Assembly: GCA_027619375.1 (NCBI GenBank)
Contig: JAQCFL010000009.1
Coordinates: forward strand, 1 to 37,675
Source: Verrucomicrobiota bacterium
GTDB lineage: Bacteria; Verrucomicrobiota; Verrucomicrobiia; Verrucomicrobiales; Akkermansiaceae
DNA length: 37,675 nt
Reading direction: 5' to 3'
Below are positions 17,466 through 34,989 of this stretch, in pieces. A model generated the notes under the pieces. It searched no databases. It was given only the letters and a program-made list of their open reading frames with translations, and had not been told where the DNA came from. The first letter of the stretch is position 1. The number at the start of each line of letters is the position of its first letter. The translations under genes and the position numbers were made by a program.

Positions 17466-18200
17466 ATGGCCAATTTTTTCCCTCGGTGGACGAACCTCCT
17501 GCCCCTGAAGATCGCGGTGTGTCTTGCGGCATTGGGGACAGCGGTAGTGGCAGGATTTGCCTACTACGCGACTCCCAAGGCCCAGCGGGTGGGGTATCAA
17601 CCCTCGCAGCCGATCCCGTATGATCACGAGTTGCACGTGAACCAGCTGGGGCTCGATTGTCGCTATTGTCACAGCTTTGTGGAGCATTCCGGCCATGCCA
17701 ACGTGCCGACGGCGAACGTTTGCTGGAACTGTCACCAGCACGTCGCGAAAGGCAGTCCGAAGCTGGCCGCCTTGCGCAGCGCGATGGGGGTCAACGAGGA
17801 CCACCAGGAGCTGACCGGCGAAGCGGGCGAGGGCCATCCGATTGAGTGGGTGCGGGTACACCGCGCACCGGACTACGTTTATTTTGATCACTCCGCCCAC
17901 GTGAACCGCGGGGTGAGTTGTGTGAGTTGCCACGGCAACGTGAACCACATGCGGGTCGTTTGGCACGACAAGAGCCATTCGATGGGTTTCTGTCTCGACT
18001 GTCACCGCGCTCCGGAGAACCACCTGCGGCCGCTGGAGGAGGTTTACAATCTCGACTACATCGCGGAGGACTATTTGAAGGAGAACAAGATTCTCGACAA
18101 GGACGGCAACCGCATCACCACGCAGCTTGATTTTGGCATGCACCTCAAGGAGCACTGGAACATCAGGCCCAAGGAGAGCTGCACCACCTGCCACCGCTAA
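17466..18200 (+). CDS. actA: Alternative complex III pentahaem cytochrome c subunit
   Basis: A 244-residue protein with one N-terminal membrane anchor (residues about 15-35, KIAVCLAALGTAVVAGFAYY) and five haem c motifs: CRYCH (65-69), CWNCH (86-90), CVSCH, CLDCH and CTTCH at the extreme C-terminus. This is the ActA pattern of ACIII, which oxidises menaquinol or ubiquinol and passes electrons to periplasmic carriers. It is the first gene of the operon actABCDEF and lies 22 bp after the second CRP/FNR-like palindrome. No Shine-Dalgarno sequence precedes the ATG. Confidence 0.95.
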   Translation: MANFFPRWTNLLPLKIAVCLAALGTAVVAGFAYYATPKAQRVGYQPSQPIPYDHELHVNQLGLDCRYCHSFVEHSGHANVPTANVCWNCHQHVAKGSPKLAALRSAMGVNEDHQELTGEAGEGHPIEWVRVHRAPDYVYFDHSAHVNRGVSCVSCHGNVNHMRVVWHDKSHSMGFCLDCHRAPENHLRPLEEVYNLDYIAEDYLKENKILDKDGNRITTQLDFGMHLKEHWNIRPKESCTTCHR

Positions 18201-18211
18201 ATTTTCCGGAG

Positions 18212-21200
18212 ATGAGCAAACGCATCTGGCAACACCCCGACATTCCCGCTTCCGAGCAGGGAACGGAAGTCTGGCGCTCCGTTGGAGAGCTGGAGAACAC
18301 TCCGCAGTTCCGCACCTGGATGGAGCGCGAGTTCCCTGCGGGGACGGCCGAGATGGACGAGGAGGAGCGGGAGATGTCGCGGCGCAATTTTGTGAAATTG
18401 ATGGGGGCCTCCTCCGCGCTGGCGGGGCTGACGCTCGCTTCCTGCCGCCGGCCGGAAGCCTACATCGTGCCCTACAAGCAGGGGCCGGAGTGGATCATCC
18501 CGGGCAAGCCGTTGTTTTACGCGACCAGCATGCCGCGTTCGGAAGGCGCGGTGCCCTTGGTGGTGACCACGCATGAGGGACGGCCGACGAAGCTCGAGCC
18601 GAACCGCACCCATCCGAATGGCGGGGGGACGGATGCCTTCACGCAGGCCTCGGTGCTCGATCTTTATGCGCCGAGCCGGTCGCGGGACATTCTCAAGAAT
18701 GGCGAGGAGGCCAGCCGCGAGGAATTCGTGGCGGCGATGACGGAGGTCGCCAAGGGCTCCGGCAAGATTGGGTTTGTTTTTGGAGAAGACGACAGCCCGA
18801 CCCGCGCCCGGATGGTGGGGGAGCTCGGCACGGCCTTTTCCGAGGCGAAGTTCTACCGCTACGAACCACTCGCCGGGGAAGGCCGCAAGAAGGCTCTGGA
18901 CGGGGCCTTTGGGGCGGACGGGGCCGAGGTGGTGGCCGACTTTTCGAAGGCCCAGCGGATCCTCTCGCTCGATGCCGATTTCGCCAGCCTCGACCAGCAG
19001 GGGGAGGTGGGTCCGTTCTTCAAGGGACGGCAGGGTGGCGGTGACGACTACAGCCACGAGGTCGCGGCGGACAAGATGAACCGCCTCTACGTGGTGGAGA
19101 CGGCCTTCAGCATGACCGGCGGCCTGGCGGATCACCGTCTGCGGGCCACGCCGAGCGAGATTTTCCGCTTCGCGGCGGAGATCGCCATTCGGGTCAATCT
19201 GAAGGCGCAGGACGCGCAACTGCAGAAGATTTTGGCCGACATCGATCCGCTCGTCTATGAGAAGAGCGCGGAGCGTGACGACACCTGGAAGCGCGAGTGG
19301 ATCAACGCCTGTGCGGAGGATCTTTGGGACAACAAGGGTCAGGCCATGGTTCTCGCCGGTCGCCGGCACAGCGAGGGGTTGCACCGCTTGGTGACCTCCC
19401 TGAACTTTGCCTTGGAGGCCTATGGTGACAACAAGCCGCTGCGTCCGGTGAAGACCGGCCGCGAGGGGCTCGGTTCGATCGAGGCGCTGGCCACGGATCT
19501 GGAGAGCGGGGCGGTGGAAACGCTCATCCTGCTCACCCCGGCCAATCCGGTTTACGACGCGCCGAGCGATCTCAGGTTCGGTGAGTTGCTCAAGAAGGCG
19601 AAGAACAGTGTGCATCTCGGCCTGCGGACCGACGCCACGGCCTGGGCCTCGACCTGGCACGTGCCGGCTGCACATTATTTGGAGTCGTGGAGCGACTCGC
19701 GCACCGCGCAAGGCACCTATTGCCTCGTGCAGCCGATGATCCTGCCGCTCTTCGGCGGCCTTTCGGAGCTGGAGTTGCTCTCGCAGCTGTTGGCTTGGAA
19801 AGAGGCGAAGGCCGAGGAAGCCGCGCCCGCCCTGATCACCGGGGAGGACGCCGAGGGTGGACCTTCCCCGGCCTATCTCGAAGTGCGCAAGACCGTTGCG
19901 GCGATCGCCGGGGAAGGGGAGGACGCCTGGAAGGAAGCGTTGAAGAACGGCTTCGTGGCGGACAGCGCCTACAAGACTATTGATCTCGGCGCGGGAATCC
20001 GCCTCGACGAGGAGAAGACGGCCGCGGCGGTGGCCGCGGCGCTGTTCCTGACGCCCGCCTTGATTGAGAACCTTGAGCTGAGCTTCGCGACCGATGGATC
20101 GGTTTACGACGGTCGCTACATCGACAACGGCTGGTTGCAGGAAGCACCGGATCCGATTTCGAAGATTTGTTGGGACAACGCCGCGTTGGTTTCGCCGCGG
20201 ACGGCCAAGGCGCTGGGAGTTTACGAGCAGATCACCCAACTCCAACCCGAGTCCAAGATTTTCGGTGTTGAGAATGGCCCCAAGCCAGAGATCGGCGAGG
20301 GTCGTGACGCGAACGCGCCGTTCATCACCATCAAGGTCGGTGCGCAGACGCTGGAGATTCCGGTGGTGGTGGCCTTTGGTCACGCCGACAACTGCATCAC
20401 CGTCTCCCTCGGCTACGGCCAGGGGGCCACGGACGGACGGCAGGGGGCGCCGAAGCTCGACAAGGACAAGCCGACGGTCGGTTTGGTCGGGCGCAACACC
20501 GGTTTCAACGCCTACCCGCTGCGGACGAGTGCGACTTCGCTGTTCGTGACCGGGGTGACGACGGCAGGGGCCGGCGGGAAGAGGTACCCGATGGCCTTCA
20601 CGCAGGAGCACCACGCCATGTATGGCCGGGCCCTGGCACGGGAAATTTCCACGAACGACGTCAAGCACAAGAGTTTCGAGGAGCAGTTGGCCAACGTCCG
20701 GAAGCAGGGGATGGATTCCCACGCGCCGGACAACATCTCGCTCTACCTGCCGAAGGGCTCGTCGAATTTCCAGAAGGACGAGGCCAAGGTCGAGAACCTG
20801 ATCAGCGACAAGATCCACCAATGGGGGATGACCATCGACCTGAACACCTGCATGGGCTGCAACGCCTGTCTGGTGGCCTGTCAGGCCGAGAACAACATCC
20901 CCATCGTCGGCAAGGAGCAGGTCGCCATGGGTCGCGAGATGCACTGGATCCGCATGGACCGCTACTTTGCCGCGCCGAAGTTCGAGCGCGACGGTCACGG
21001 GCACGTGAAGAAGGAGAAGATCGACGGGAAGGAAGTCGAGAAGGTGGCCCCGGAGTGGGTGCGCGACAACCCCGAGCTCATTCCGCAGCCGGTGGCCTGT
21101 GTGCAGTGCGAGGCGGCGCCTTGTGAGACGGTTTGTCCGGTCAATGCGACGGTGCACACCGAGGAGGGCCTCAACACGATGGCCTACAACCGCTGCATCG

Positions 21201-21790
21201 GCACGCGTTACTGCGCGAACAACTGCCCCTACAAGGCGCGTCGGTTCAACTTTTTCGACTACAACAAGCGCAACCCGCTCATCGACCACAACCTCTACAA
21301 GGGTCCGGCCGGCAAGAAGCAGGTGGGCGAGGCCCCGCACCTCCAGCGTAACCCGAACGTTTCGGTGCGCATGCGCGGGGTGATGGAGAAGTGCACCTAC
21401 TGTGTGCAGCGTCTGGAGGGAGCGAAGATCAAGCGAAAGCAGGTGCAGCGTTCGAAGTCCCTCGCCGCGGCGGGTGGCTCGAAGAGCGTGGATGTTTCCG
21501 TGGAGGATCTGCGGGTGAAGACCGACAGCGTGAAAACGGCCTGTCAGGACGCCTGTCCGGCCGAGGCGATCTCCTTCGGCAACCTGCTGGACACCAACTC
21601 CCGGGTGTTCCGCGCGAAATATTTCAACGAGAAGGAGAATGGTTCGTGGAAACCGAAGCCGCGCAACTACGACCTACTCAACTACGTCGGGACCATCCCG
21701 CGCACCAGCTATCTGGCCCGCGTGAAGAACCCGAATGAGAAGATGCCCGACGCGAAATACGCCGGGCAGGCAACCATCCACATGACCTAA
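18212..21790 (+). CDS. actB: Alternative complex III iron-sulfur subunit (molybdopterin-like fused to ferredoxin-like domain)
   Basis: A 1192-residue protein. After a short N-terminal segment it has a twin-arginine signal ([19 protein letters not shown]), typical of ActB. The first part resembles molybdopterin oxidoreductases but belongs to the cofactor-free ActB1 type. The second part, from about residue 870, is a multi-cluster ferredoxin: [12 protein letters not shown] starting at residue 880, [44 protein letters not shown] and [13 protein letters not shown]. In characterised ACIII this domain holds three [4Fe-4S] and one [3Fe-4S] cluster and connects quinol oxidation to the haems of ActA. 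The length fits a fused ActB1-ActB2. Confidence 0.95.
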
Positions 21791-21797
21791 GTCCCTC

Positions 21798-23288
<1,491 letters not shown>

Positions 23289-23296
23289 TCGAAACG

Positions 23297-23854
23297 ATGA
23301 GCACGACTGTCAAACGCGTCTACGGCTACCTGGCCGAGTTCGAAAGCGCCTCGGCCCTCTACAAGGCTGCGGAGAAGGTGCGCGATGCCGGATTCCGGAA
23401 GTGGGATTGTTTCACGCCGTATCCGGTGCACGGCCTGGATCATGCGATGGGCGTGAAGCGCTCCATTTTGCCTTACTTCGTCTTCTTCGGGGGCCTGACC
23501 GGCTTCCTGACCGCCCTCGTCCTGGCCTACACCACGCAGGTGGTGATCTACCCGACCGTGGTGCAGGCCAAGCCGGCCAACATCTTCACGGTGCCGGCCT
23601 TCTTTCCGATCATGTTCGAGTTGACGGTGCTCTTCTCGGGATTCACGACGCTCTTCGGACTGCTCGGTCTGTGTCAACTGCCGCGGCTGAACCACCCCCT
23701 CTTCGCGAGCAAGCAATTCCACCGCGTCACCGACGACGGTTTCTTCATCGCCATTGAGGCGCGTGATCCGAAATTCTCGGCGGAGGCCACCAAGGGCCTT
23801 CTTGACGAGATTGGCGGCAAGAACATCGAACTGGTGGAGGACGACAACAAGTAA
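23297..23854 (+). CDS. actD: Alternative complex III subunit ActD (DUF3341)
   Basis: A 185-residue protein with an N-terminal soluble domain (YGYLAEFESASALYKAAEKV, DAGFRKWDCFTPYPVHGLDH) followed by two transmembrane helices (PYFVFFGGLTGFLTALVLAY; IMFELTVLFSGFTTLFGLLG) and a short C-terminal domain (FHRVTDDGFFIAIEARDPKF). This is the DUF3341 architecture of ActD, which packs against the NrfD-like subunit in ACIII structures and carries no cofactor. Its stop overlaps the start of actE by one base (TAATG), suggesting translational coupling. Confidence 0.94.
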   Translation: MSTTVKRVYGYLAEFESASALYKAAEKVRDAGFRKWDCFTPYPVHGLDHAMGVKRSILPYFVFFGGLTGFLTALVLAYTTQVVIYPTVVQAKPANIFTVPAFFPIMFELTVLFSGFTTLFGLLGLCQLPRLNHPLFASKQFHRVTDDGFFIAIEARDPKFSAEATKGLLDEIGGKNIELVEDDNK

Positions 23855-24513
23855 TGAAGTACTTCTTCCTGGCACTCTTTCTCCTCTGCGTCCTTGTGGT
23901 TGGCATCGGCGGGTTCCGCGGCCAACTCAAGTCGGAGCGACCCATCGAGATTTTCCCTGACATGGATGTGCAGGACAAGATCCTCGGGCAGGCCGACAGC
24001 CACTTTTTCAGCGACGGGCAGGGCTCCCGCAACCCCGTGCAGGGATCGGTCCCCCATGCCGGTGACGACGGGGTGTTCCCGGTCGAGTTCAGTGAGGGCC
24101 GCAGCGGTTACTACTACACCGGGGCGATCGACGACTACTTCGGCAACGGCATGCCGGCGGAGCTCGGACTCGACAAGGACAACATCGAGGCCTTTCTGCG
24201 GCTTGGACACGAGCGCTACGCGACCTCTTGCGCTCCCTGCCACGGTGCGACCGGGGACGGGAAGGGGATCACCAGCTACTACGGCATGGCCGGAATCGCG
24301 AACCTGCACACCAAGCCCCGCGAGACCACGCCGGACGGCAATATTTACAACACCATCACGAACGGCAAGGGCCTGATGGGTTCCTACGGAGCGACTCTTC
24401 CAGTGCGTGATCGCTGGGCCATTGTGGCCTACATCCGCGCCCTGCAGACCGCCATGAAGACCGACGCCGCCGCCGTTGTCGCGCCGTCCGAACCATCCAC
24501 CGCCAGCAACTGA
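23854..24513 (+). CDS. actE: Alternative complex III monohaem cytochrome c subunit
   Basis: A 219-residue protein with an N-terminal hydrophobic segment (MKYFFLALFLLCVLVVGIGG) and one haem motif CAPCH at residues 126-130 (SCAPCHGATGDGKGI). Downstream GMAGIANLHTKP and YNTITNGKGLMGSYGATLPV contain Met candidates for the sixth ligand. Conserved features of ActE such as MPAELGLDKDNIEAFLRLGH are present. In several characterised homologues ActE is lipid-anchored; here Cys12 lies inside the hydrophobic helix without a good lipobox, so a transmembrane anchor is more likely. It is coupled to actD by a 1-base overlap. Confidence 0.92.
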   Translation: MKYFFLALFLLCVLVVGIGGFRGQLKSERPIEIFPDMDVQDKILGQADSHFFSDGQGSRNPVQGSVPHAGDDGVFPVEFSEGRSGYYYTGAIDDYFGNGMPAELGLDKDNIEAFLRLGHERYATSCAPCHGATGDGKGITSYYGMAGIANLHTKPRETTPDGNIYNTITNGKGLMGSYGATLPVRDRWAIVAYIRALQTAMKTDAAAVVAPSEPSTASN

Positions 24514-24520
24514 CTTCCGC

Positions 24521-25867
24521 ATGGGCCACCACGTAACATCGAAAGACATCCCCGTTGACGGCGAGCACCTCGACCGGAGCAAGGTCGCGGGGATCATGCG
24601 CATCTGCCTGATCATCGCCGTGGTCGGGACCATTGGGGCCTTCGCGATCATGCTGGGCGGGGACAAGGAGAGCCAGTTTGTGGGTTCCGTGACCTACTCC
24701 TGGTTGTTTGCCTTCTTCTACTTTCTGACCATCGCGATGGGCGGTTGTTTCTGGACGCTGCTGCACAACGTCTCCAACTCGGGGTGGGGGACCTCGGTCC
24801 GCCGGACCATGGAGAACGTCGGTTTCGTCTTCCCCTTCATGTTCGTCTTCGCCCTTCCGCTGCTCTTCCCGCAGGTGCAGCACTGGCTGTATGAGTGGAT
24901 GACGATGCACAAGGCCGCTGCGGCGCATGCGCCGGAGGGCATGGGCCTCAAGGATGCCCTGCACCACTCCGGTGATCCGCACGATCACCTCCTTTACAAC
25001 AAGTTTTTCTATCTGAACCAGCCGATGTGGTATCTGCGCTTCTTCCTCTTCTTCGGGGCGCTCGGCTTCACGATCTGGGTGCAGCGGAAGTGGTCGATCG
25101 CGCAGGACACCGATCCGAATCCCACCACGGCCCTTCTCTTCAAGCAGCGCTGGCACGCCTCATGGGGCATACCCATCGTCGCGGTGACCATCACCTTCGC
25201 GGCGATCGACTGGGTCATGGGGCTCGACTACAAGTGGTTCTCCACGATGTTCGGGGTCTATGTCTTCGCGGGATCGGCGCTGAACTCGATGGCGGTGATC
25301 ATCCTCGTGACGATCTTCCTGCGCCGGAAGGGCTACCTGAAGAACGTGGTCGGTCCCGAGCATGACCACATCATGGGCAAGCTGGCCTTCGCCTTCACCA
25401 TCTTCTGGGCCTACGTGACCTTCTCGCAGTTTTTCCTGATCTGGTATGCCAACATCACGGAGGAGACGAGCTACTTCCTGCTGCGCAACACCTCGAACTG
25501 GAACACGCTGAGCATCGGCCTCGTGGCGCTGCACTTCTTCGTGCCCTTCCTCATGCTGCTGCGCTCCGACGTGAAGAAGAGCAACAAGTTCATGATTTTC
25601 ATGGCCAGCTACCTCCTTGTCCTGCACATGGTGGACGTTTATCACATGGTCATTCCGGAGCGGGGGCCATCGGTGACGAGCATTGCCTCGCACGGCAAGG
25701 ACATCCACCTCTGGGTGAATGTCTCCGCGGCATGGCTCTACGATTTGGTGGCTTTCGTGGTCATCGGATCGGGCTTCCTCTTCTTCCTCCTGCGCAACAT
25801 CACCTCCGCGGCGCTCTACCCGCACCGGGATCCCCGCATCCTCGAATCGGCCAACCTGCACAACTGA
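24521..25867 (+). CDS. actF: Alternative complex III second NrfD-like membrane subunit
   Basis: A 448-residue membrane protein with about ten hydrophobic segments. The ATG at 24521 is chosen because it lies just after the actE stop; a longer open frame overlaps the actE coding region without sense. Seen: TYSWLFAFFYFLTIAMGGCF and WGTSVRRTMENVGFVFPFMF near the N-terminus, and HASWGIPIVAVTITFAAIDW and LNSMAVIILVTIFLRRKGYL in the central part. These match ActF, a paralogue of ActC that in ACIII has no quinol site but may take part in ion movement. Its stop overlaps the next cytochrome gene by one base (TGATG). Confidence 0.93.
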   Translation: MGHHVTSKDIPVDGEHLDRSKVAGIMRICLIIAVVGTIGAFAIMLGGDKESQFVGSVTYSWLFAFFYFLTIAMGGCFWTLLHNVSNSGWGTSVRRTMENVGFVFPFMFVFALPLLFPQVQHWLYEWMTMHKAAAAHAPEGMGLKDALHHSGDPHDHLLYNKFFYLNQPMWYLRFFLFFGALGFTIWVQRKWSIAQDTDPNPTTALLFKQRWHASWGIPIVAVTITFAAIDWVMGLDYKWFSTMFGVYVFAGSALNSMAVIILVTIFLRRKGYLKNVVGPEHDHIMGKLAFAFTIFWAYVTFSQFFLIWYANITEETSYFLLRNTSNWNTLSIGLVALHFFVPFLMLLRSDVKKSNKFMIFMASYLLVLHMVDVYHMVIPERGPSVTSIASHGKDIHLWVNVSAAWLYDLVAFVVIGSGFLFFLLRNITSAALYPHRDPRILESANLHN

Positions 25868-26649
25868 TGGACACCGCTTCTGACAATCCGTTTCGTCGCT
25901 TCACCTCCTTCTGGCTGGGGTTGGCGATCTTCTTTGCCTTTGCGATCCTCTTTGTCTTCCTGAGTCCGCTCCTAAGCGGAAAGAAGGACCAGGGGGTGGA
26001 CAAGGCTGCGGCAGCCCGTCGCATGGAGATCAAGAAGGAGATGCTGAACGCGCAAGCCGGGGTGCTTCCCGTTCCGGTGGAGAGTGTTTATGGGAAGGCG
26101 GGTGGCGAATTGCTTTCCGTGGCCCCTGGTGCGGTGGAAGACGCCGCGCAGATTGTGCCGGGCTCACCCCGCGCCCTGGCCCTGGCCGCGGTGCCTGATG
26201 TGAAGGTCGACATCGTGCAGACCGATCCGGACGCGCCGATTGATCCCGCCGTGTTCGAGGCCGGCAAGGCCCAGTATATCCTCTGCCAGGCCTGCCACGG
26301 TCCGGATGGCGGGGGCATGCCGGGACTGGCCCCGCCGCTGGCCAACTCCGATTGGGTGCAGGGGCCGGTGGAGAATCTGATCCGTATTCAGCTTCGTGGG
26401 TTGACCGGTCCGATCACCGTGAGTGGCGTGGACTACGCCCTGCCGGTTCCGATGATCGCGCAGTCCTTCCAGACCGACGAGCAGATCGCCGCGGTGCTGA
26501 CCTACGTGCGCAACAGTTTTGGCAACAAGGGCTCGGCGGTGACGCCGGAGCAGGTGGCGGCCTTCCGGGGTGAGGTCGGCAAGCCGCCCCTGACCGTGGA
26601 AGACCTCATCAAACCCGAGCCGGCGGCCGAGAAACCGAACGACCAGTAG
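25867..26649 (+). CDS. Membrane-anchored monohaem cytochrome c of the ACIII cluster
   Basis: A 260-residue protein with one N-terminal transmembrane helix (FWLGLAIFFAFAILFVFLSP), a linker of about 100 residues rich in Ala, Val and Pro, and a cytochrome c domain with CQACH at 140-144 (YILCQACHGPDGGGMPGLAP). VPMIAQSFQTDEQIAAVLTY gives the Met ligand candidate, followed by VRNSFGN. It overlaps actF by one base. It is paralogous to the cytochrome at 28871: both have an N-terminal anchor and end the haem domain with TY(V/L)RNSFGN. A role as electron carrier between ACIII and the oxidase is inferred. Confidence 0.88.
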   Translation: MDTASDNPFRRFTSFWLGLAIFFAFAILFVFLSPLLSGKKDQGVDKAAAARRMEIKKEMLNAQAGVLPVPVESVYGKAGGELLSVAPGAVEDAAQIVPGSPRALALAAVPDVKVDIVQTDPDAPIDPAVFEAGKAQYILCQACHGPDGGGMPGLAPPLANSDWVQGPVENLIRIQLRGLTGPITVSGVDYALPVPMIAQSFQTDEQIAAVLTYVRNSFGNKGSAVTPEQVAAFRGEVGKPPLTVEDLIKPEPAAEKPNDQ

Positions 26650-26661
26650 CAGAGCGAACAC

Positions 26662-28149
26662 ATGGCCACTGATTCCGATACCATCAAACACGCTGACGAC
26701 GATTTGCGTCCGCTGATCGACCGCTCCCTGCGGCATCCGGTGATGTTCTTCTTCACCAGCGCCGCGGCGTGGCTTGCGGTGGCCCTGATCCTGGGGATCG
26801 TGGCCTCCGCCAAGACTCACGCGCCGGAGTTCATGGGCAACGTGGGCTGGTTGGTCTATGGCAAGGCCTACGCGGCCCACCTCAACACCCTCGTCTATGG
26901 CTGGGGTTGTCAGGCCGCCTTCGGGGTCATCATCTGGCTCATGGCGCGTCTTTCCCGCAAGGAGTGCCGCAATCCAGGGACCATCCTGTTGGTCGGGCAC
27001 GTCTGGAATTTCGCGGTGCTCTACGGTGTGATCGCCATTCTCAGCGGTGGTGGAACCGGAGTCCCCTGGATGGAGTTTCCGGCGGCGGTGTGGCCGGTGC
27101 TGTTGATCAGCTACGTCTTCATCATGGCCGGTTCGGTGGTGCAGTTCCGCTGCAAAGAGGGCGGGCACACCTACATCTCGCAGTGGTATCTGCTCGGGGC
27201 GATCATTTGGTTCCCCTGGGTTTTCACCACCGCCAACATCCTCATCTTCCACTTCAACGGGCACCCCGTGATGGATGCGGGGATCAACGCCTGGTTCAAA
27301 TCGACCCTTATATTGCTCTTCTTCGTCCCGGTCGGAGTGGCGGCGGCCTATTATCTGGCGCCGAAAGTGACCGGTCGTCCGGTGCACAGCTACGCGTTGG
27401 CGCAGATGGGATTCTGGGCCCTTGCGGCGATCGGGCCGTGGACGGGCATGCAGAAGTTGGCGGGTGCGCCGATCCCGCAGTTCCTTCCCTATGTCGGTGC
27501 CGCGGCGACGGTGCTCTTCTTCATCCCTGCGGTGACAGTGGCCGTGAACATTCTCAAGACGGTTGCCGGGCACGCCTCGACCGTGGCGGCCAGTCCGACG
27601 CTGCGCTTCACCATCGCGGGTATTTTCGGCCTGCTCGCGCTCGGCGTGATGGGGGTCTGCCTGAACTTCCCGGCGGGTCTCCGCTTCTCGCAGTTCTCCA
27701 TCGCGGGCTACGGATTTGAAATTCTCGCCATCTATGGTTGCTTCAGCATGTGTTCGTTCGCCGCCATGTATTTCATCGTGCCCCGCATCACCCGGCGGGA
27801 ATGGCTCTCGCGCCGCTTCATCTCGTGGCACTTCTACCTTTCCGCTTATGGGGTGGCGACCATCGTGATCTGCACGATCGGTGGGGGGTTGATGCAGGGA
27901 GCGGCGCAGGAATACTGGAACATGCCCTGGTCGGACGCCGCGACCCGGCAGTATGCCTACGGATGGGGGACGACGGTCTCCTGGCTCTTCATCCTCTTTG
28001 CGAACGTCTTCTTTCTCCTGCACCTCCTCCTGATGTGGGCGCGCCTCGGCCGCCGCAGTCAGCATCCGACCCTTCTCCACAAACACCACTCCGAATCGCC
28101 GCACGGTCCGGAGGGGGACATCGATGAAATTCAAGCCGCGAACGCCTGA
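26662..28149 (+). CDS. CcoN-like membrane protein lacking CuB and high-spin haem ligands
   Basis: A 495-residue protein with about twelve hydrophobic segments whose overall pattern follows cbb3 oxidase subunit I: AYAAHLNTLVYGWGCQAAFG (TM2 His73), PVHSYALAQMGFWALAAIGP, MYFIVPRI and ISWHFYLSAYGV with GGGLMQG. The catalytic residues are absent. The CuB segment GHNAVGFF is replaced by FKSTLILLFF (K213 onward). The GPHH pair is replaced by GPWTG (248-252). The HVH haem pair is missing; no His occurs between residues 295 and 389. Only the TM2 His remains. An oxygen-reducing role is therefore excluded by sequence; a structural, quinol-binding or electron-relay role is open. A CcoO-like cytochrome follows after 6 bp. 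Confidence 0.82.
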   Translation: MATDSDTIKHADDDLRPLIDRSLRHPVMFFFTSAAAWLAVALILGIVASAKTHAPEFMGNVGWLVYGKAYAAHLNTLVYGWGCQAAFGVIIWLMARLSRKECRNPGTILLVGHVWNFAVLYGVIAILSGGGTGVPWMEFPAAVWPVLLISYVFIMAGSVVQFRCKEGGHTYISQWYLLGAIIWFPWVFTTANILIFHFNGHPVMDAGINAWFKSTLILLFFVPVGVAAAYYLAPKVTGRPVHSYALAQMGFWALAAIGPWTGMQKLAGAPIPQFLPYVGAAATVLFFIPAVTVAVNILKTVAGHASTVAASPTLRFTIAGIFGLLALGVMGVCLNFPAGLRFSQFSIAGYGFEILAIYGCFSMCSFAAMYFIVPRITRREWLSRRFISWHFYLSAYGVATIVICTIGGGLMQGAAQEYWNMPWSDAATRQYAYGWGTTVSWLFILFANVFFLLHLLLMWARLGRRSQHPTLLHKHHSESPHGPEGDIDEIQAANA

Positions 28150-28155
28150 GAAGCC

Positions 28156-28866
28156 ATGACGTTCAGAACATTCAGCCTCGGATTGCTCGGCACCTTCTCG
28201 TTGCCGTGGCTCCTTATTGTGGTGGTGCCCTACGCCACCATGCAGCGTATTCAATCTGTCGAGTTCAACGAGGACGACGACGGTCGCACGGGTCCCTACG
28301 TCCCGGCACGTCCCGGACGGGTGACAGACGGGGCGGCGGTCTATGCCGCGAACGGCTGCTACACCTGTCACACCCAGTTGATCCGGCCGACCTACGCGGG
28401 GACGGACATGTGGCGCGAGGATTGGGCGGGCGTGCACGTCGCCGCGGACAACATCGACACCCGTCGTGAGACCTCGGTTTTTGATTTCAACGGTGAGGCC
28501 TTCGCGCAGATCGGCCTGACCCGCACCGGGCCGGATCTATCCAATGTCGGCCACCGCGCCGAGAGCTACGTCAAGGGCACCGAGACGACCCCGGAGGAGT
28601 GGTTCCTCATGCACCTCTACAATCCCCGCGGCGACTTCGAATACTGGTCGTCCTGCCCCTCCAACGGACACCTCTTCAAGGTGCAGAAGAAGGAGGGGCA
28701 AGGCAGCGGTGAAGCGCTTGCCGTGAAGGCTCGCAAGGGCAAGGAAGTCGTTCCGACCGCCGCAGCCCGCGCCTTGGCCAGCTATCTCTATTCCTTGCAA
28801 AAAGACGATCAGGTTCCCTACTCGCTCAACTACCGCCCCGACAAGAAGCGGGCCATCGAACAATAA
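28156..28866 (+). CDS. CcoO-like monohaem cytochrome c
   Basis: A 236-residue protein with an N-terminal transmembrane helix (LGLLGTFSLPWLLIVVVPYA) and a CcoO-type haem domain: GCYTCHTQLIRPTY (haem motif 68-72), then RTGPDLSNVGHRAESY and EEWFLMHLYNPRGDFEYW. In true CcoO the sequence after NPR is of the SNMPAYPWL type, with Met as sixth haem ligand; here it reads SSCPSNGHLF, with Cys167 at the Met position and His172 nearby. Its gene partner, the CcoN-like protein, has also lost its catalytic residues. The pair therefore seems to be a diverged cbb3-derived module. The C-terminus is longer than in CcoO and rich in Lys. Confidence 0.85.
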   Translation: MTFRTFSLGLLGTFSLPWLLIVVVPYATMQRIQSVEFNEDDDGRTGPYVPARPGRVTDGAAVYAANGCYTCHTQLIRPTYAGTDMWREDWAGVHVAADNIDTRRETSVFDFNGEAFAQIGLTRTGPDLSNVGHRAESYVKGTETTPEEWFLMHLYNPRGDFEYWSSCPSNGHLFKVQKKEGQGSGEALAVKARKGKEVVPTAAARALASYLYSLQKDDQVPYSLNYRPDKKRAIEQ

Positions 28867-28870
28867 CCCC

Positions 28871-29677
28871 ATGTCCGATTCCTACCAGCCCATCGACCCC
28901 CTTCGTCCCGATCTCGACGAGGGGACCAACGTTGCGCAGACCCATGGTGCCGTCCTTGCGGACAACGCAGCGATCTCCCGGGAGCGCCGGGTGCGCGAGA
29001 ACGGCATGGAGCCGGTTTCCCTCTGGGTGATCGTTTCGAGTGCCTTTGTGCTTCTCGTGGCCGGAGCGGTGCTCAATGCCGGTGGCGGCCTTTTCAACTA
29101 CAACGAATACCGTGTGAACGGCTACGTGCAACGCGATGCCCCGGGGGTCGGAGACAGCGGCCCGGCCACCGCGCCGATCATGGACGCCCTCGTGAAGAAC
29201 GGTTCCAAGGTTTACTCGACCTGTTCCGGTTGCCACCAGGGTGACGGCATGGGGGATGGCGCCAGCTATCCGCCGCTCGGTGGATCGGAGTGGGTGACGG
29301 GTGACACGGAGCAACTGGCCATGATCATCCTGAGCGGGGTGAACGGCGCGATCACCGTGAACGGTCGGACCTGGAACACGCCGGGCGGAATGCCTGCCCA
29401 GCCCTTGCGCGATCCGGTGCAACTGGCCTCCGTGATGACCTACTTGCGCAACAGCTTCGGCAACAGCACCGGAGACGTGGTGACGCCCGAGATGGCCGCC
29501 GCGGCCTTGGAAATTTACAATGAGAAAGCCGGGGGCTCCCCAACGCCCCCACAAGTCACCGAAGCGGAGCTGAAGGCCGACCACGGCAAGATGTTGTCCG
29601 GCGAGGTGATGGATCCCGCCACGGTTGTCGATCTTGAAACCTTCCAACCGGTGGAAGCGGCTGGTGCCGCCGAGTAA
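28871..29677 (+). CDS. Membrane-anchored monohaem cytochrome c (second paralogue)
   Basis: A 268-residue protein with a charged N-terminal 45 residues, a single transmembrane helix (VSLWVIVSSAFVLLVAGAVL), and a cytochrome c domain with CSGCH at 118-122 (STCSGCHQGDGMGDG). A candidate Met ligand lies in NTPGGMPAQPL, followed by MTYLRNSFGN, which is shared with the cytochrome at 25867. It takes the place of CcoP in a cbb3 operon but has only one haem motif and a different anchor. The C-terminal tail of about 60 residues is acidic. It precedes ctaD by 27 bp; transfer of electrons to CuA is a reasonable inference. Confidence 0.86.
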   Translation: MSDSYQPIDPLRPDLDEGTNVAQTHGAVLADNAAISRERRVRENGMEPVSLWVIVSSAFVLLVAGAVLNAGGGLFNYNEYRVNGYVQRDAPGVGDSGPATAPIMDALVKNGSKVYSTCSGCHQGDGMGDGASYPPLGGSEWVTGDTEQLAMIILSGVNGAITVNGRTWNTPGGMPAQPLRDPVQLASVMTYLRNSFGNSTGDVVTPEMAAAALEIYNEKAGGSPTPPQVTEAELKADHGKMLSGEVMDPATVVDLETFQPVEAAGAAE

Positions 29678-29704: not shown

Positions 29705-31600
29705 ATGAGCTCAGCATCTGAAGCACACGCCTCCGACGGTCATCACGATGATCACGGCGACCACCATCACGAGCTTCCGTTTTGGAAGAAGTATATCTTC
29801 TCCACCGACCACAAGATGATCGGGATCCAGTACGGGATCACCGCGCTGCTCTTTTTGGCCTTTGGATTCTATCTGATGATGGTGATGCGGTGGAGCATCG
29901 CCTATCCGCACGAGCCCCTTCCGGGCTGGATGAGCTGGTTCCTGTCGGACGACTGGAAGGCCCGCTGGCTGCAGGACGGGAAGGTGACGGGGGAGACCTA
30001 CAACATGTTCGGGGCGATGCACGGCACCATCATGGTCTTCCTGGGGATCGTGCCGCTTGGATTCGCGGCCTTTGGCAACTTCGTGACGCCGCTGCAGATC
30101 GGGGCGATCGACATGGCCTTCCCGAAACTCAACATGGCCAGCTACTGGCTCTATCTGCTGGGTGGCTTGGTGATGATCGGCAGCTTCTTCGTGGAGTCCG
30201 GCGCGGCGAAGTCCGGTTGGACGAACTATTCGCCGCTGGCGGGGTTTGCGGACTCGCAGATCGTGAACCAGTTTCTAGCGGGGCAGACGCAGTGGCTGTT
30301 GGGGATGGTTTTCCTGATTTCCTCCTCGCTGCTGGGCGCGGTCAACTTCCTGACAACGATCATCAACCTTCGAGCCAGGGGACTGACCTGGATGCGGCTG
30401 CCCTTCTTTGTATGGGCGATGTTGGTGACCGGATTCCTGCTTCTTCTCGCCTTCCCGCCCCTGGAAGTGGCGGCGCTCATGCAGCTCATGGACCGAACTG
30501 CCGGATCGAGCTTCTTCATGCCGAGCGGGCTCTACACGAAGACGGCCGGCCTGCTGGAGGCCTCCGGTAGCGGAAGCCCGTTGCTCTATCAGCACCTCTT
30601 CTGGTTCCTGGGACACCCCGAGGTTTACGTGCTCCTGCTGCCGGCCATCGCCTGTGTGGCGGAAATCATTCCGACCAACACGCGGAAGCCGCTCTGGGGA
30701 TACAAGTCGATGGTCTATGCGGTCATCGTGCTCGGCTTCCTGAGCTTCATCGTCTGGGCCCACCACATGTATCTGACGGGGATGGGGCCGGTGGTTTCCA
30801 ACTTTTTCCAGACCACCACGGTGCTGATTTCGATTCCGTCGGTAATCCTGCTGACCTCGATGTTGATTTCCCTGTGGGGTGGATCGATCCGTTTCAACCA
30901 ACCGATGTTGTGGGCGGCGGCGTTCATTCCGATGTTCGGGATCGGAGGCCTGACCGGATTGCCGCTGGCCTTCAACCTGGTCGACCTACACCTGCACGAC
31001 ACTTACTACGTGATCGGCCACTTCCACTACGTGGTGGCGCCGGGGGTGCTCTTCGGGCTCTTCGCGGGGATCTATCACTGGTATCCGAAGATCACAGGTC
31101 GGCACATGAGCAATTTCCTGGGTCACCTGCACTTTTGGCCGTCGCTGATCTTCATGAACCTGCTCTTCTTCCCGATGCTTGTGCAGGGGATGGCCGGTTT
31201 CCACCGTCGTTGGTATAACGGGGGAGACGCCTACCTCTCGAAGGCTTCGGACAGCGTGAACATCTTTGGCAACACCGTGGCCGAGTGGCTCTGGTTGAAC
31301 CCGGTGATGTCCTGGGCCGCGTGGTTGCTGGCCGCGGCGCAGATTCCGTTCTTCATCAATTTCTGGACGAGCATCTGGTGGGGCAAGAAGATCAAGAACG
31401 ACAACCCGTGGGATGCCACCACCCTTGAGTGGTCGACCCCGACGCCGCCGCCGCATGGCAACTTCACCTACGACGTGAACGTCTATCGGGGTCCTTACGA
31501 ATACAGTCGTGAGGATCATGAGGGTGACTTTTACCCGCAGTGGGAGGCCCCGAAACGGGACGAACCCGCTGAAGAACCAGCCAAGAAACCCGTCGCCTAA
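29705..31600 (+). CDS. ctaD: Cytochrome c oxidase subunit I (haem-copper oxidase, A family)
   Basis: A 631-residue protein with twelve or more membrane helices. All metal ligands are visible: His in MFGAMHGTIMVF, HPEVY with the Glu and crosslinking Tyr of the A1 type, WAHHMYLTGMG for CuB, and HDTYYVIGHFHYVV for the two haems. The D-channel region GAIDMAFPKLNMASYW is conserved. The K-channel segment, PTGIK in classical enzymes, reads PSVIL here, with Leu382 in place of the Lys. The cytoplasmic N-terminus is His-rich (HHDDHGDHHH within residues 8-22). It works with subunits III, IV and II encoded downstream. Confidence 0.95.
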   Translation: MSSASEAHASDGHHDDHGDHHHELPFWKKYIFSTDHKMIGIQYGITALLFLAFGFYLMMVMRWSIAYPHEPLPGWMSWFLSDDWKARWLQDGKVTGETYNMFGAMHGTIMVFLGIVPLGFAAFGNFVTPLQIGAIDMAFPKLNMASYWLYLLGGLVMIGSFFVESGAAKSGWTNYSPLAGFADSQIVNQFLAGQTQWLLGMVFLISSSLLGAVNFLTTIINLRARGLTWMRLPFFVWAMLVTGFLLLLAFPPLEVAALMQLMDRTAGSSFFMPSGLYTKTAGLLEASGSGSPLLYQHLFWFLGHPEVYVLLLPAIACVAEIIPTNTRKPLWGYKSMVYAVIVLGFLSFIVWAHHMYLTGMGPVVSNFFQTTTVLISIPSVILLTSMLISLWGGSIRFNQPMLWAAAFIPMFGIGGLTGLPLAFNLVDLHLHDTYYVIGHFHYVVAPGVLFGLFAGIYHWYPKITGRHMSNFLGHLHFWPSLIFMNLLFFPMLVQGMAGFHRRWYNGGDAYLSKASDSVNIFGNTVAEWLWLNPVMSWAAWLLAAAQIPFFINFWTSIWWGKKIKNDNPWDATTLEWSTPTPPPHGNFTYDVNVYRGPYEYSREDHEGDFYPQWEAPKRDEPAEEPAKKPVA

Positions 31601-31635: not shown

Positions 31636-33375
31636 ATGGAGATTCCCTACACATTCACCGCCCGGAAGGACACCGGCCTCTTCAACTCGAAGATCGGTAT
31701 CTGGCTCTTCCTCGCTTCCGAGGTCATGCTCTTCGGTGGCCTGTTTTCCGGCTACGTCTTCCTGCGTCTTTACGCTGATTATCCCTGGCCGGAGCGGGCC
31801 CTGCCGGTCCTGCCGGGTCTCATCAACACCTTCGTGCTGATCGGTTCTTCCGTGACGGTGGTCTTTGCCTGGGCTTCGCTGAAGATGCGGCAGTGGGGGC
31901 GGTTCCAGTTTTTCATGGGGATCACGATTTTCTGTGCGGTGATCTTCATGGTCCTCAAGGGTCTGGAGTACAACGCGAAGTGGCATCACCAGGCGGTGCG
32001 TCTGGATGATTTCACGATCCTTGAAGGGCACACCCACAAGGCCGAGCTCGATGAGCGCGGTCACCTGCACATCCACCATGAGCACGGCGCCGAGCCGACC
32101 GAGGAGGAGAAGAAGAGGCAGTTTCCGGCCAACGTGGTGGTGGTCGAGGCGGAGGAGATCAACTTCACCCTCGTGCGGGCCCATGATCCCTATGTGAAGG
32201 ACATTCTGGCGAAGGCCAAGGAGCGCGGTGCGGTGCCGGTGCTCGCTGACAACGCCTTCTTCTATGGTTCGCCTAAAGATCTGCCGATCGACGCTGCGGA
32301 GCGCAAGAAGCTGGAGGATCAGCTGATCAAGTCCCACGCATCCGGCAAGGAAGCGGTGAGGTTCGGGGACAAAAAGGATTCCCTCTACATTCCGAAGGAC
32401 ACCCAGCTAACGGTCGATCTGTTGGACCGCGCCGAAGACGTCTATCTTGAGGCGCGGGCCATCAACGGGGAAGTGCGGACGAAGGTGCTGCGCAAACTCT
32501 GGAAAGATGCACGAGAGGCGGACAAAGAGGACCTTCCGAACTTCAAGTTGGCGGAGGGCATCCAGATCGATCCGGAGGAGCATCTTACCGGTCTCGTGGC
32601 CGAGGCGCCCTCGGCATTGACCTTCACGTTTGAGAAGCCGGTGGCGCTGCACTTCAAGCGCAGCCTGATCCGCGAGGGCGAGGGCAGCAGCAAGCTCAAG
32701 GATGACACCATCATCAAAGGTGCGGTGGCCAGCAGTCCGATGGGACTCGCCGTGGATGCGGTGGACCTCCGCTGGGTGGCCCAGCGGGCCCATGAGCAGG
32801 GCAAGGATCCGAAGACCGTGATCGAGGGACTCTGGATCATGGAGAACCCCGAGTTCAAGGAGATCTGGGAACGGCATTCCGCGCAGCTGGCAATCTTGAC
32901 AGAGGAATTGAAGAAGGATGGCCGGGAGCCAACCGAGAACGACAAATACCGGATCGATTGGCAGGACCTGGTGGCCTTCCACCGCGCCCATGAGAAGCAC
33001 CTCGAGCCTGGCTCGCCGGAGGTGGCGGACCTGCGGCCCGGGATGTTCGAGGGGATCACCGGTCCCAACCACAAGATCGAGGAGAACCAGCATGCCTTCT
33101 TCAGCATCGACATTCCCAACGAGAAGGTCGGCTTCGAGTCGCTCTTCACGCCGAAGTGGAACAACTACTACGCGATCTACTTCACCCTCACCGGCCTGCA
33201 CGGTCTGCACGTGGTGGGTGGGGCGCTGGTGCTGGCCTACTACATGTTTTTCAGCAAGGGACTCTATCGCCGCAATCCGGAGTGGCTCGCCAACCGGGTG
33301 GAGATCGGGGGCCTCTTCTGGCACTTTGTGGACCTGGTTTGGATCTTCCTCTTTCCGATCCTCTATTTGATGTAA
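31636..33375 (+). CDS. ctaE: Cytochrome c oxidase subunit III with a large hydrophilic insert
   Basis: A 579-residue protein, against about 200 for the usual five-helix form. The subunit III core is clear at both ends: IGIWLFLASEVMLFGGLFSG with the conserved Glu, two further helices ending in FMVLKGLEYNAKW, then after the insert NNYYAIYFTLTGLHGLHVVG and FWHFVDLVWIFLFPILYL. Between about residues 115 and 505 lies a hydrophilic, charged region of about 390 residues without membrane segments, starting with the His-rich GHTHKAELDERGHLHIHHEH (131-150). By the usual subunit III topology this loop would be periplasmic. No frameshift is visible and base use is even through the insert, so it looks like a genuine extension. 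Confidence 0.92.
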   Translation: MEIPYTFTARKDTGLFNSKIGIWLFLASEVMLFGGLFSGYVFLRLYADYPWPERALPVLPGLINTFVLIGSSVTVVFAWASLKMRQWGRFQFFMGITIFCAVIFMVLKGLEYNAKWHHQAVRLDDFTILEGHTHKAELDERGHLHIHHEHGAEPTEEEKKRQFPANVVVVEAEEINFTLVRAHDPYVKDILAKAKERGAVPVLADNAFFYGSPKDLPIDAAERKKLEDQLIKSHASGKEAVRFGDKKDSLYIPKDTQLTVDLLDRAEDVYLEARAINGEVRTKVLRKLWKDAREADKEDLPNFKLAEGIQIDPEEHLTGLVAEAPSALTFTFEKPVALHFKRSLIREGEGSSKLKDDTIIKGAVASSPMGLAVDAVDLRWVAQRAHEQGKDPKTVIEGLWIMENPEFKEIWERHSAQLAILTEELKKDGREPTENDKYRIDWQDLVAFHRAHEKHLEPGSPEVADLRPGMFEGITGPNHKIEENQHAFFSIDIPNEKVGFESLFTPKWNNYYAIYFTLTGLHGLHVVGGALVLAYYMFFSKGLYRRNPEWLANRVEIGGLFWHFVDLVWIFLFPILYLM

Positions 33376-33393: not shown

Positions 33394-33768
33394 ATGGCAG
33401 ATTCCGTAGAAGAAATCAAAAAGGCGCAGAAGCTCTATATCCTGATCGGGCTGGTTCTGTTCGTCTTCACCGTGGTGACGGTGGCGGTGGCAACCCAACC
33501 GTGGCTGGACTTCGGGGCGCATGGCTTTGACAAGGCCGACATGACGATCGGTCTGTTGATTGCCACCGTGAAGGCGACCCTGGTGGGGGCTATCTTCATG
33601 CACCTCAACCACGAGAAGAAGCTCGTCTACTGGGTGTTCGGGTTGGGGATCATCATGGGCATCGCCCTGATGCTGCTGACCGCGCTGAGCTTTGCCGACC
33701 CGATCAAGTACGGCAACCCGAAGACCGGCGACGGCTTCTACAACCCTGAAATTCCCGAGATCAACTGA
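33394..33768 (+). CDS. ctaF: Cytochrome c oxidase subunit IV (prokaryotic, COX4_pro)
   Basis: A 124-residue protein with three hydrophobic helices (YILIGLVLFVFTVVTVAVAT; MTIGLLIATVKATLVGAIFM; YWVFGLGIIMGIALMLLTAL). The motif VKATLVGAIFMHLNHEKKLV is diagnostic of the bacterial subunit IV family. The role is structural, stabilising subunits I and III. It follows ctaE by 18 bp and has no Shine-Dalgarno sequence. The C-terminus is longer than usual and polar (GNPKTGDGFYNPEIPEIN). Confidence 0.9.
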   Translation: MADSVEEIKKAQKLYILIGLVLFVFTVVTVAVATQPWLDFGAHGFDKADMTIGLLIATVKATLVGAIFMHLNHEKKLVYWVFGLGIIMGIALMLLTALSFADPIKYGNPKTGDGFYNPEIPEIN

Positions 33769-34200: not shown

Positions 34201-34989
34201 ATGACCCCGACCAAACTTCTCGGCATTCCGGAGAACTTCGCTGAACACGGCGGAGGCGTGGACCACTTGATCGACGTGGTGCACTACTTCATGGCGGCGC
34301 TCTTCGTGGGCTGGACGCTCTTTTTCTTCTACTGCTGTTTCCGTTTCTGGTGCCGCCGGAACAAGACGGCCTCCTACCGCGGGGTTCAGAGCCACGTATC
34401 CACGCACCTGGAGATCGGGGTGGTCATCATCGAGGCCATTCTGCTTCTTGGTTTCGCCTTCCCGCTGTGGACGGAGCGGACTGATCGCTACGCGGACATT
34501 CAGCAGCAGGATCCGGTCCGCATTCGCGTGATTGGCTATCAGTTTGCCTGGAACTACCACTATCCTGGTGCGGACGGGAAGTTCGGGCGCATCGACCGCC
34601 ACCTCATTCAGAATGTGGGGGATCCCTGCATTGATCCCGCAGATCCGAATGGCTGGGACGACTACACGAGTCCGGTGCTGAAGATTCCGGTTGGCCGCCC
34701 CTGCATTCTGCAGGTGACCTCCACCGACGTGATTCACAACTACGCCATCGTCCCGATGCGGATCCAGCAGGATGCGATGCCCGGGGAGGACATTCCGATG
34801 TGGTTCCGGCCGATCCAGAAGCTGGAGACCTACGTGGTCTGTGCGCAGCTTTGCGGGGAAGGCCACGCGAACATGCGGGGGATCATGGAGGTGATCAGCG
34901 AGGGTGCCTACGACAGTTGGGAGGCCGAGCAATCGGCCGGGGCATCGGAGCGCAACAAGTCGAAGGAGCCTGGTTTGGCGCAGCAGTAG
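34201..34989 (+). CDS. ctaC: Cytochrome c oxidase subunit II (CuA)
   Basis: A 262-residue protein starting at ATG 34201; a longer open frame from 34057 overlaps the preceding gene and is not used. Two membrane helices (HYFMAALFVGWTLFFFYCCF; VVIIEAILLLGFAFPLWTER) are followed by a periplasmic cupredoxin domain. CuA ligands are complete: His in STDVIHNYAIVP, and Cys, Cys, His and Met in CAQLCGEGHANM. GYQFAWNYHYPGADGKFG carries the conserved aromatic entry residues. It has no fused cytochrome c, so external cytochromes of the operon must donate electrons. It is unusually placed last in the operon, after ctaDEF. The lpxA gene converges 9 bp downstream. Confidence 0.95.
   Translation: MTPTKLLGIPENFAEHGGGVDHLIDVVHYFMAALFVGWTLFFFYCCFRFWCRRNKTASYRGVQSHVSTHLEIGVVIIEAILLLGFAFPLWTERTDRYADIQQQDPVRIRVIGYQFAWNYHYPGADGKFGRIDRHLIQNVGDPCIDPADPNGWDDYTSPVLKIPVGRPCILQVTSTDVIHNYAIVPMRIQQDAMPGEDIPMWFRPIQKLETYVVCAQLCGEGHANMRGIMEVISEGAYDSWEAEQSAGASERNKSKEPGLAQQ

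Follow-up and report, generated by a model that had tools for sequence, protein, structure and literature searches.

Background

Alternative complex III (ACIII) is a quinol-oxidising respiratory complex, and supercomplexes that join it to an oxidase, with direct transfer from haem to haem, are known (PMC5928083, PMC8552683). A C-type oxidase adjoining ACIII has already been reported in Opitutaceae and in the verrucomicrobial methanotrophs (PMC8498564, citing Refojo 2010), and a cbb3 oxidase beside ACIII has been described in print and tied to oxygen affinity (PMC6688271, PMC8498564, PMC11102522), in one case to explain the high oxygen affinity of the methanotrophs (PMC6688271). Here we describe a 37,675-nucleotide stretch of DNA from a genome of the Verrucomicrobiota (GenBank GCA_027619375.1, contig JAQCFL010000009.1; hereafter the window), in which the gene at this place, hereafter N, codes for a protein with the body of CcoN, the subunit I of cbb3 oxidases, that has lost nearly all of the residues binding its metals and haems.

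Gene organization of the ACIII locus

The window carries the full ActA-F gene set of ACIII on the forward strand: ActA, a pentahaem cytochrome c with five CxxCH motifs (17466..18200; PF14522, NF041781 QrcA-like); ActB, the molybdopterin-oxidoreductase-like/Fe-S subunit (18212..21790; TIGR04519, QrcB/QrcC-like, with Fer4 domains); ActC, the NrfD-like quinol-binding membrane subunit (21798..23288; PF03916, 3.1e-22); ActD (23297..23854; PF11821, 4.5e-61); ActE, a monohaem cytochrome c (23854..24513; PF13442, 6.7e-13); and ActF (24521..25867; PDB ActF 6f0k_F, 1.4e-48). These are followed on the same strand by cyc1, a membrane-anchored monohaem cytochrome c (25867..26649; PF00034, 3.4e-9; CQACH), by N (26662..28149; PF00115 or COX1, 1.3e-37), by its partner O, a CcoO/FixO-like membrane monohaem cytochrome c (28156..28866; PF02433, 2e-9; CYTCH at residues 68-72) that passes the cut-off of the FixO profile (37.7 bits against 29.6), and by cyc2, another membrane-anchored monohaem cytochrome c (28871..29677; PF00034, 4.1e-10; CSGCH). 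An aa3-type oxidase operon comes next, again on the forward strand, with the catalytic subunit I CoxA (29705..31600; PF00115, 7.2e-129; GHPEVY, HH and HFHY present), subunit III CoxC (31636..33375; PF00510, 3.7e-15, in two stretches), subunit IV CoxD (33394..33768; PF03626, 7.9e-10) and subunit II CoxB (34201..34989; PF00116, 3.4e-11) with the CuA motif CAQLCGEGHANM. The metal-site motifs of CoxA and CoxB are kept. The transmembrane parts of CoxC are separated by a large hydrophilic insert of about 350 aa; its relatives in the window's order are likewise long, and the methanotroph CoxC has about 265 aa. In F. johnsoniae ACIII is contacted via subunit III.

At the loci whose flanks we read, ActA-F are followed by a short or cytochrome-like gene and then by N, O and cyc, after which CoxABCD sometimes come; the ActF-N-O-cyc arrangement is found across the window's class. 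Among named ACIII loci, located via ActC, only the Verrucomicrobiota-like ones carry N-O; none of the named Bacteroidota, Planctomycetota and Acidobacteriota loci does, and the Cox genes lie directly next to ACIII there wherever the contig is long enough. A scan of a viral collection gave no match. Within the window's order it is common, though not universal, for an aa3 operon to follow directly: one is present at 16 of the 51 loci with a ligand-deficient N and room to see it, and dead and ligand-complete loci do not differ significantly in this respect (p=0.20). Since the remaining 35 of the 51 are without it, pairing with an adjacent aa3 oxidase is not general.

Several variations on this organization were also seen. 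In five loci (L059, L061, L062, L067 and L041) the place of the window's cyc1, between ActF and N, is taken by a small unnamed protein with a single TM helix, about 100-200 aa long and sharing a conserved motif similar to SYGWxDxxxGxVRLPIxxAxELTxxEL; this protein is perhaps another ACIII subunit. In a methanotroph genome the ligand-deficient N is preceded by nosLDFY-like genes (L042:8846-13999), an exception to the usual order that matches the nos insertion reported in the ACIII cluster of Methylacidiphilum caldifontis (PMC11102522). Eight loci from another class of the phylum (L043-L048, L089 and L090) have a separate, ligand-complete CcoN-CcoO pair away from ACIII; in several of them a large ORF encoding an ActE-like haem domain comes before the pair.

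N retains the body of a cbb3 subunit I

The forward-strand frame at 26662-28149 codes for 495 aa and reads as given in an earlier sequence-only reading of this DNA, which had proposed that its product keeps the fold of cbb3 subunit I. Single-sequence searches of PDB with N returned only cbb3 subunit I, and a profile search placed the same subunit far ahead of all others (3mk7, 5.6e-69). An AlphaFold model built on a 30-row alignment of the window and related-locus sequences has 12 TM helices (mean pLDDT 88.6, pTM 0.89), and when compared with PDB by Foldseek and VIA-align it recovers CcoN chains at the top (Z 44.8-46.4, rmsd 2.4-2.6 A, about 448 residues), followed by NorB (Z 40-42) and then by the A-family oxidases. 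The 12 helices and the ranking of CcoN among the structure matches indicate that the body of N is intact, as had been proposed. N scores 84.6 bits with the ccoN equivalog model TIGR00780, whose cut-off is 583; the one ligand-complete relative that was scored also falls under this cut-off, with 250 bits.

Loss of the metal and haem ligands

The ligands of P. stutzeri CcoN (3mk7), which we take from the published cbb3 structure to be H60, H207, H257, H258, H345 and H347 along with Tyr251, align respectively with H73, S214, Q264, K265, F352 and I354 of N, and with G258. The sole survivor of the six histidines is His73 in TM2 (codon 26878..26880, + strand, as are all the following), equivalent to His60, a ligand of low-spin haem b. 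All three CuB histidines are gone, His207 being replaced by Ser214 (27301..27303) and His257-His258 by Gln264-Lys265 (27451..27456), and the His345-x-His347 motif that binds haem b3 and haem b has become Phe352-x-Ile354 (27715..27723). The active-site tyrosine of helix VII, which is crosslinked to a histidine in CcoN, is likewise lost (Gly258, 27433..27435). The loss of the CuB and HxH haem ligands, first suggested by inspection of the sequence, is thereby borne out, with two amendments: the counterpart of the GPHH pair is not GPWTG but G262-M263-Q264-K265, a few residues downstream of it; and the supposed absence of histidine from residues 295-389 holds for 305-389 and for the HxH position, but not for His304, which the alignment and the model place in the TM8-TM9 loop off that position. 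Apart from these sites, residues 468-481 of N (28063-28104) form a His-rich C-terminal tail (HPTLLHKHHSESPH), which the model leaves disordered and which is predicted to be cytoplasmic; it could possibly bind metal.

Ligand-complete and ligand-deficient forms across the phylum

In 289 genomes searched from the phylum, full-length relatives of N were found throughout the window's class, and an alignment of 110 related sequences was made. The number of ligand histidines in them is bimodal: 40 sequences have all six and 70 have three or fewer (three in 3, two in 9, one in 41 and none in 17), with not a single sequence having four or five. Hereafter we refer to the 70 as dead forms. The alignment includes 28 ligand-complete sequences from the same place in the ACIII operon, which also keep Tyr251; the loss is therefore not fixed across Verrucomicrobiota. 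The dead forms, by comparison, have retained Tyr251 in 0 of 70 cases and the equivalent of His73 in 28, the TM2 histidine being missing from the other 42.

We then considered the 138 columns that are conserved in the ligand-complete ACIII-linked forms. On average the dead relatives retain the 7 catalytic columns in 14% and the other 131 in 61% (Mann-Whitney p=1e-4), which, together with the complete loss of Tyr251, indicates a loss of ligands far beyond chance. W37, G80, P140, W211, P270 and P272 are present in 99-100% of the dead forms, and the haem motif of O (C68, C71, H72) is intact in all 57 dead and all 22 ligand-complete rows that were aligned.

The oxidase content was assessed by counting COX1 proteins in 42 genomes. 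In two small genomes of 98-99% completeness (G001 and G146) the ligand-complete N is the only COX1 protein, and cytochrome bd subunit I was not found in either; judging from this gene content, the ligand-complete N most likely functions as a terminal oxidase. All surveyed genomes with a dead N have at least one other haem-copper oxidase gene of the COX1 type. Four of these (G102, G125, G205 and G224) have exactly one besides the dead N and no cytochrome bd, from which we infer that this oxidase must be their O2 reductase. The window's own genome combines the dead N and the operon aa3 with a ligand-complete cbb3 oxidase (L002).

Selection on dead N and the number of losses

Pairwise dN/dS of dead N (NG86, pairs with unsaturated dS) ranges from 0.08 to 0.29, with 0.15-0.16 for the methanotrophs, 0.08 for L093/L094, 0.10 for L059/L096 and 0.29 for L051/L082. 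ActB and O in the operons concerned give comparable values, and ActC in the same genomes somewhat lower ones; the values for dead N show that it is under purifying selection.

The number of losses depends on the tree. Parsimony requires 12-13 changes between dead and live on the ActC tree, at least 10 of them forced by well-supported branches, and 15 losses are counted if loss is assumed to be irreversible. The tree of N itself, with the ligand columns removed, has 3 changes, at least 2 of them forced. A single origin of all dead rows is rejected (AU p=0.0085) only because L064 and L033 nest within the ligand-complete forms; once these two are taken out, a single clade of the remaining 52 dead rows is acceptable (p=0.51). 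It can thus safely be stated that the ligands were lost at least twice. We did not take the counts from the ActC tree at face value on account of a mismatch between L123 and L125: these share 99% identity in ActC and ActB, but only 72% in N and 67% in O. This contrast suggests that the N-O part was exchanged between operons, or a MAG artefact. More generally, the conflict between the trees may reflect faster evolution of dead N or exchange of N-O.

Proposed role of dead N and alternative explanations

The fold, O and its haem c are kept and the parts for O2 chemistry have been dropped, which makes a haem-free platform the most likely interpretation; likewise, that dead N is maintained by selection together with a haem-carrying partner indicates that it is probably a scaffold. 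We accordingly favor, with moderate confidence, the proposal that N is a cofactor-free membrane scaffold presenting a CcoO-type haem c to the oxidase partner of ACIII. The ancestor would have been a working cbb3-type (C-family) subunit I built into the verrucomicrobial ACIII operon along with a CcoO-type haem-c partner. Many lineages, the window's included, would then have given up the catalytic center (CuB, haem b3, normally haem b, and the active-site tyrosine), retaining the 12-helix body and O. Such an N would anchor the CcoO-like haem c of O, and probably the neighboring membrane cytochromes too, beside ACIII, so as to carry the haem relay of ActA/ActE on to a separate oxidase, which in the window would be the aa3 enzyme encoded directly downstream. 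The role in scaffolding and relay, the physical presence of N in an ACIII-aa3 supercomplex and the absence of haem from the window's own copy are all predictions of this kind. The original suggestion, that a subunit lying between ACIII and an aa3 oxidase was repurposed for a non-catalytic function, is supported by the fold, the ligand loss, the conserved gene position, the purifying selection and the retained haem c of O. It needs modification in that the loss is not fixed and happened more than once, and in that the adjacent aa3 is not universal.

Alternatively, N could be an assembly, stability or regulatory subunit, acting outside the electron path in the biogenesis of O or aa3, in a proton path or in gating. 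Although the strict pairing of the N and O genes and the conservation of non-catalytic residues would suit such a function, a haem-c partner that is always co-encoded and keeps its haem motif is better accommodated by a relay scaffold, and no assembly-factor domain was found; we regard this alternative as unlikely.

For the window's own clade the main competing explanation is that N still holds one low-spin haem b through His73 and a replacement ligand, as an electron carrier devoid of the oxygen site. His73 is kept in 22 of the 23 sequences of this clade, which is more than a pure scaffold needs, and a new histidine, His454, is found in 22 of the 23 as well; His454 further occurs in 27 of the 28 dead forms that have His73, most of the intact forms having an asparagine there. 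However, the model places His73 close to where TM2 (66-98) begins on the periplasmic side, and His454 close to where TM12 (431-459) ends on the cytoplasmic side; by this inferred topology the two should sit at opposite depths, making a haem pair of His73 and His454 unlikely. Moreover, their co-occurrence reflects few clades, the TM2 histidine is itself missing from the majority of dead forms (42/70), and the haem-adjacent CcoN positions R57 and H337 are mostly lost (kept in 14% and 17%). We therefore consider retention of haem b to be quite improbable.

It is very unlikely that N has an unconventional metal site made of other conserved residues and is still some kind of oxidoreductase: polar Q, K, R or H do occur at some ligand positions in different clades, but the substitutes vary from clade to clade and include F, I, A, G and V, and the alignment contains no new His/Cys/Met set common to all dead forms. 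Least probable is a decaying pseudogene of a lost cbb3 oxidase, a reading that might draw on the same-place ligand-complete relatives, and on Chthoniobacter flavus Ellin428 (L113:14595-16095), whose N gene is broken into two overlapping frames by a sequencing error or true frameshift, but that is ruled out for the family by selection, given the open frame in the window, full-length open frames in 70 sequences, relatives' dN/dS of 0.08-0.29, invariant structural residues and the retention of O; the intact homologues that had been named in advance as a possible refutation thus do exist, and the dead form beside them is a conserved gene.

Returning to the scaffold proposal, its broadest version would be that the core of a haem-copper oxidase became, on more than one occasion, a structural subunit without cofactors in a respiratory supercomplex, giving rise to a stable class of "pseudo-oxidases" across Verrucomicrobiota in which the sole survivor of the electron path would be the haem-c partner, between ACIII and a second oxidase. 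We see the case for this combined statement as evenly balanced.

Implications for the verrucomicrobial methanotrophs

The methanotroph family in our set (f4) has pmoA-type genes, and in this family and in Methylacidiphilum sp. Phi (L097) N retains one of the six ligand histidines. Genome G042 codes for six COX1 proteins, namely two aa3-like, two ba3-like (a label based on their length, their sequence and what has been published, not on a curated model), one NorB (PDB NorB, 1.1e-86) and the dead N; a catalytic cbb3 oxidase is absent among the six. The "cbb3-type oxidase" reported from Methylacidiphilum and Opitutaceae (PMC6688271, PMC8498564) resembles these N proteins in its place beside ACIII; keeping just one ligand histidine, these N proteins could not function as the high-affinity cbb3 oxidase of the reports. 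As far as the genes can be matched by operon place, the sequence does not support the ACIII-linked methanotroph gene as a catalytic cbb3 oxidase, and the annotation of this gene would be corrected to a protein lacking the metal ligands. As annotation by similarity names dead N genes cbb3 oxidase, the microaerobic capacity inferred for many Verrucomicrobiota genomes is at risk.

Comparison with known systems

The presence of C-type oxidase genes beside ACIII was already known. Neither a ligand-less CcoN nor any haem-copper oxidase pseudoenzyme was found described in the openly readable literature. The same holds for the recurrence of the catalytic-site loss and for the conservation of the dead form.

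The ACIII-caa3/aa3 supercomplexes of Rhodothermus marinus and Flavobacterium johnsoniae (PMC5928083, PMC8552683) likewise combine ActA-F with an aa3 or caa3 oxidase. They have a direct haem relay to the oxidase, from ActE or from a domain of ActA, and, unlike at the window's locus, CcoN/CcoO-like proteins between ACIII and the oxidase have not been described in them. CcoN of 3mk7 shares with N the 12-TM fold (Z 46.4, 2.4 A over 448 residues), stands among its best PDB sequence matches and has a CcoO-type gene next to it; it differs from N in that their identity is 18% by structural alignment, N lacks five of the six histidines and the active-site tyrosine, N scores 84.6 against the TIGR00780 cut-off of 583, and N is located in an ACIII operon. 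The ligand-complete N proteins (e.g. L060-L063, L069 and L071) share with dead N the operon place, the O and cyc neighbors and an alignment from end to end, and are set apart by six histidines and the tyrosine; in G001 and G146 no O2 reductase other than this form was detected. The two forms together give a natural gradation, at one operon place, from an oxidase core that works to one that is dead, which opens the conversion of a catalytic membrane core into a scaffold to direct study.
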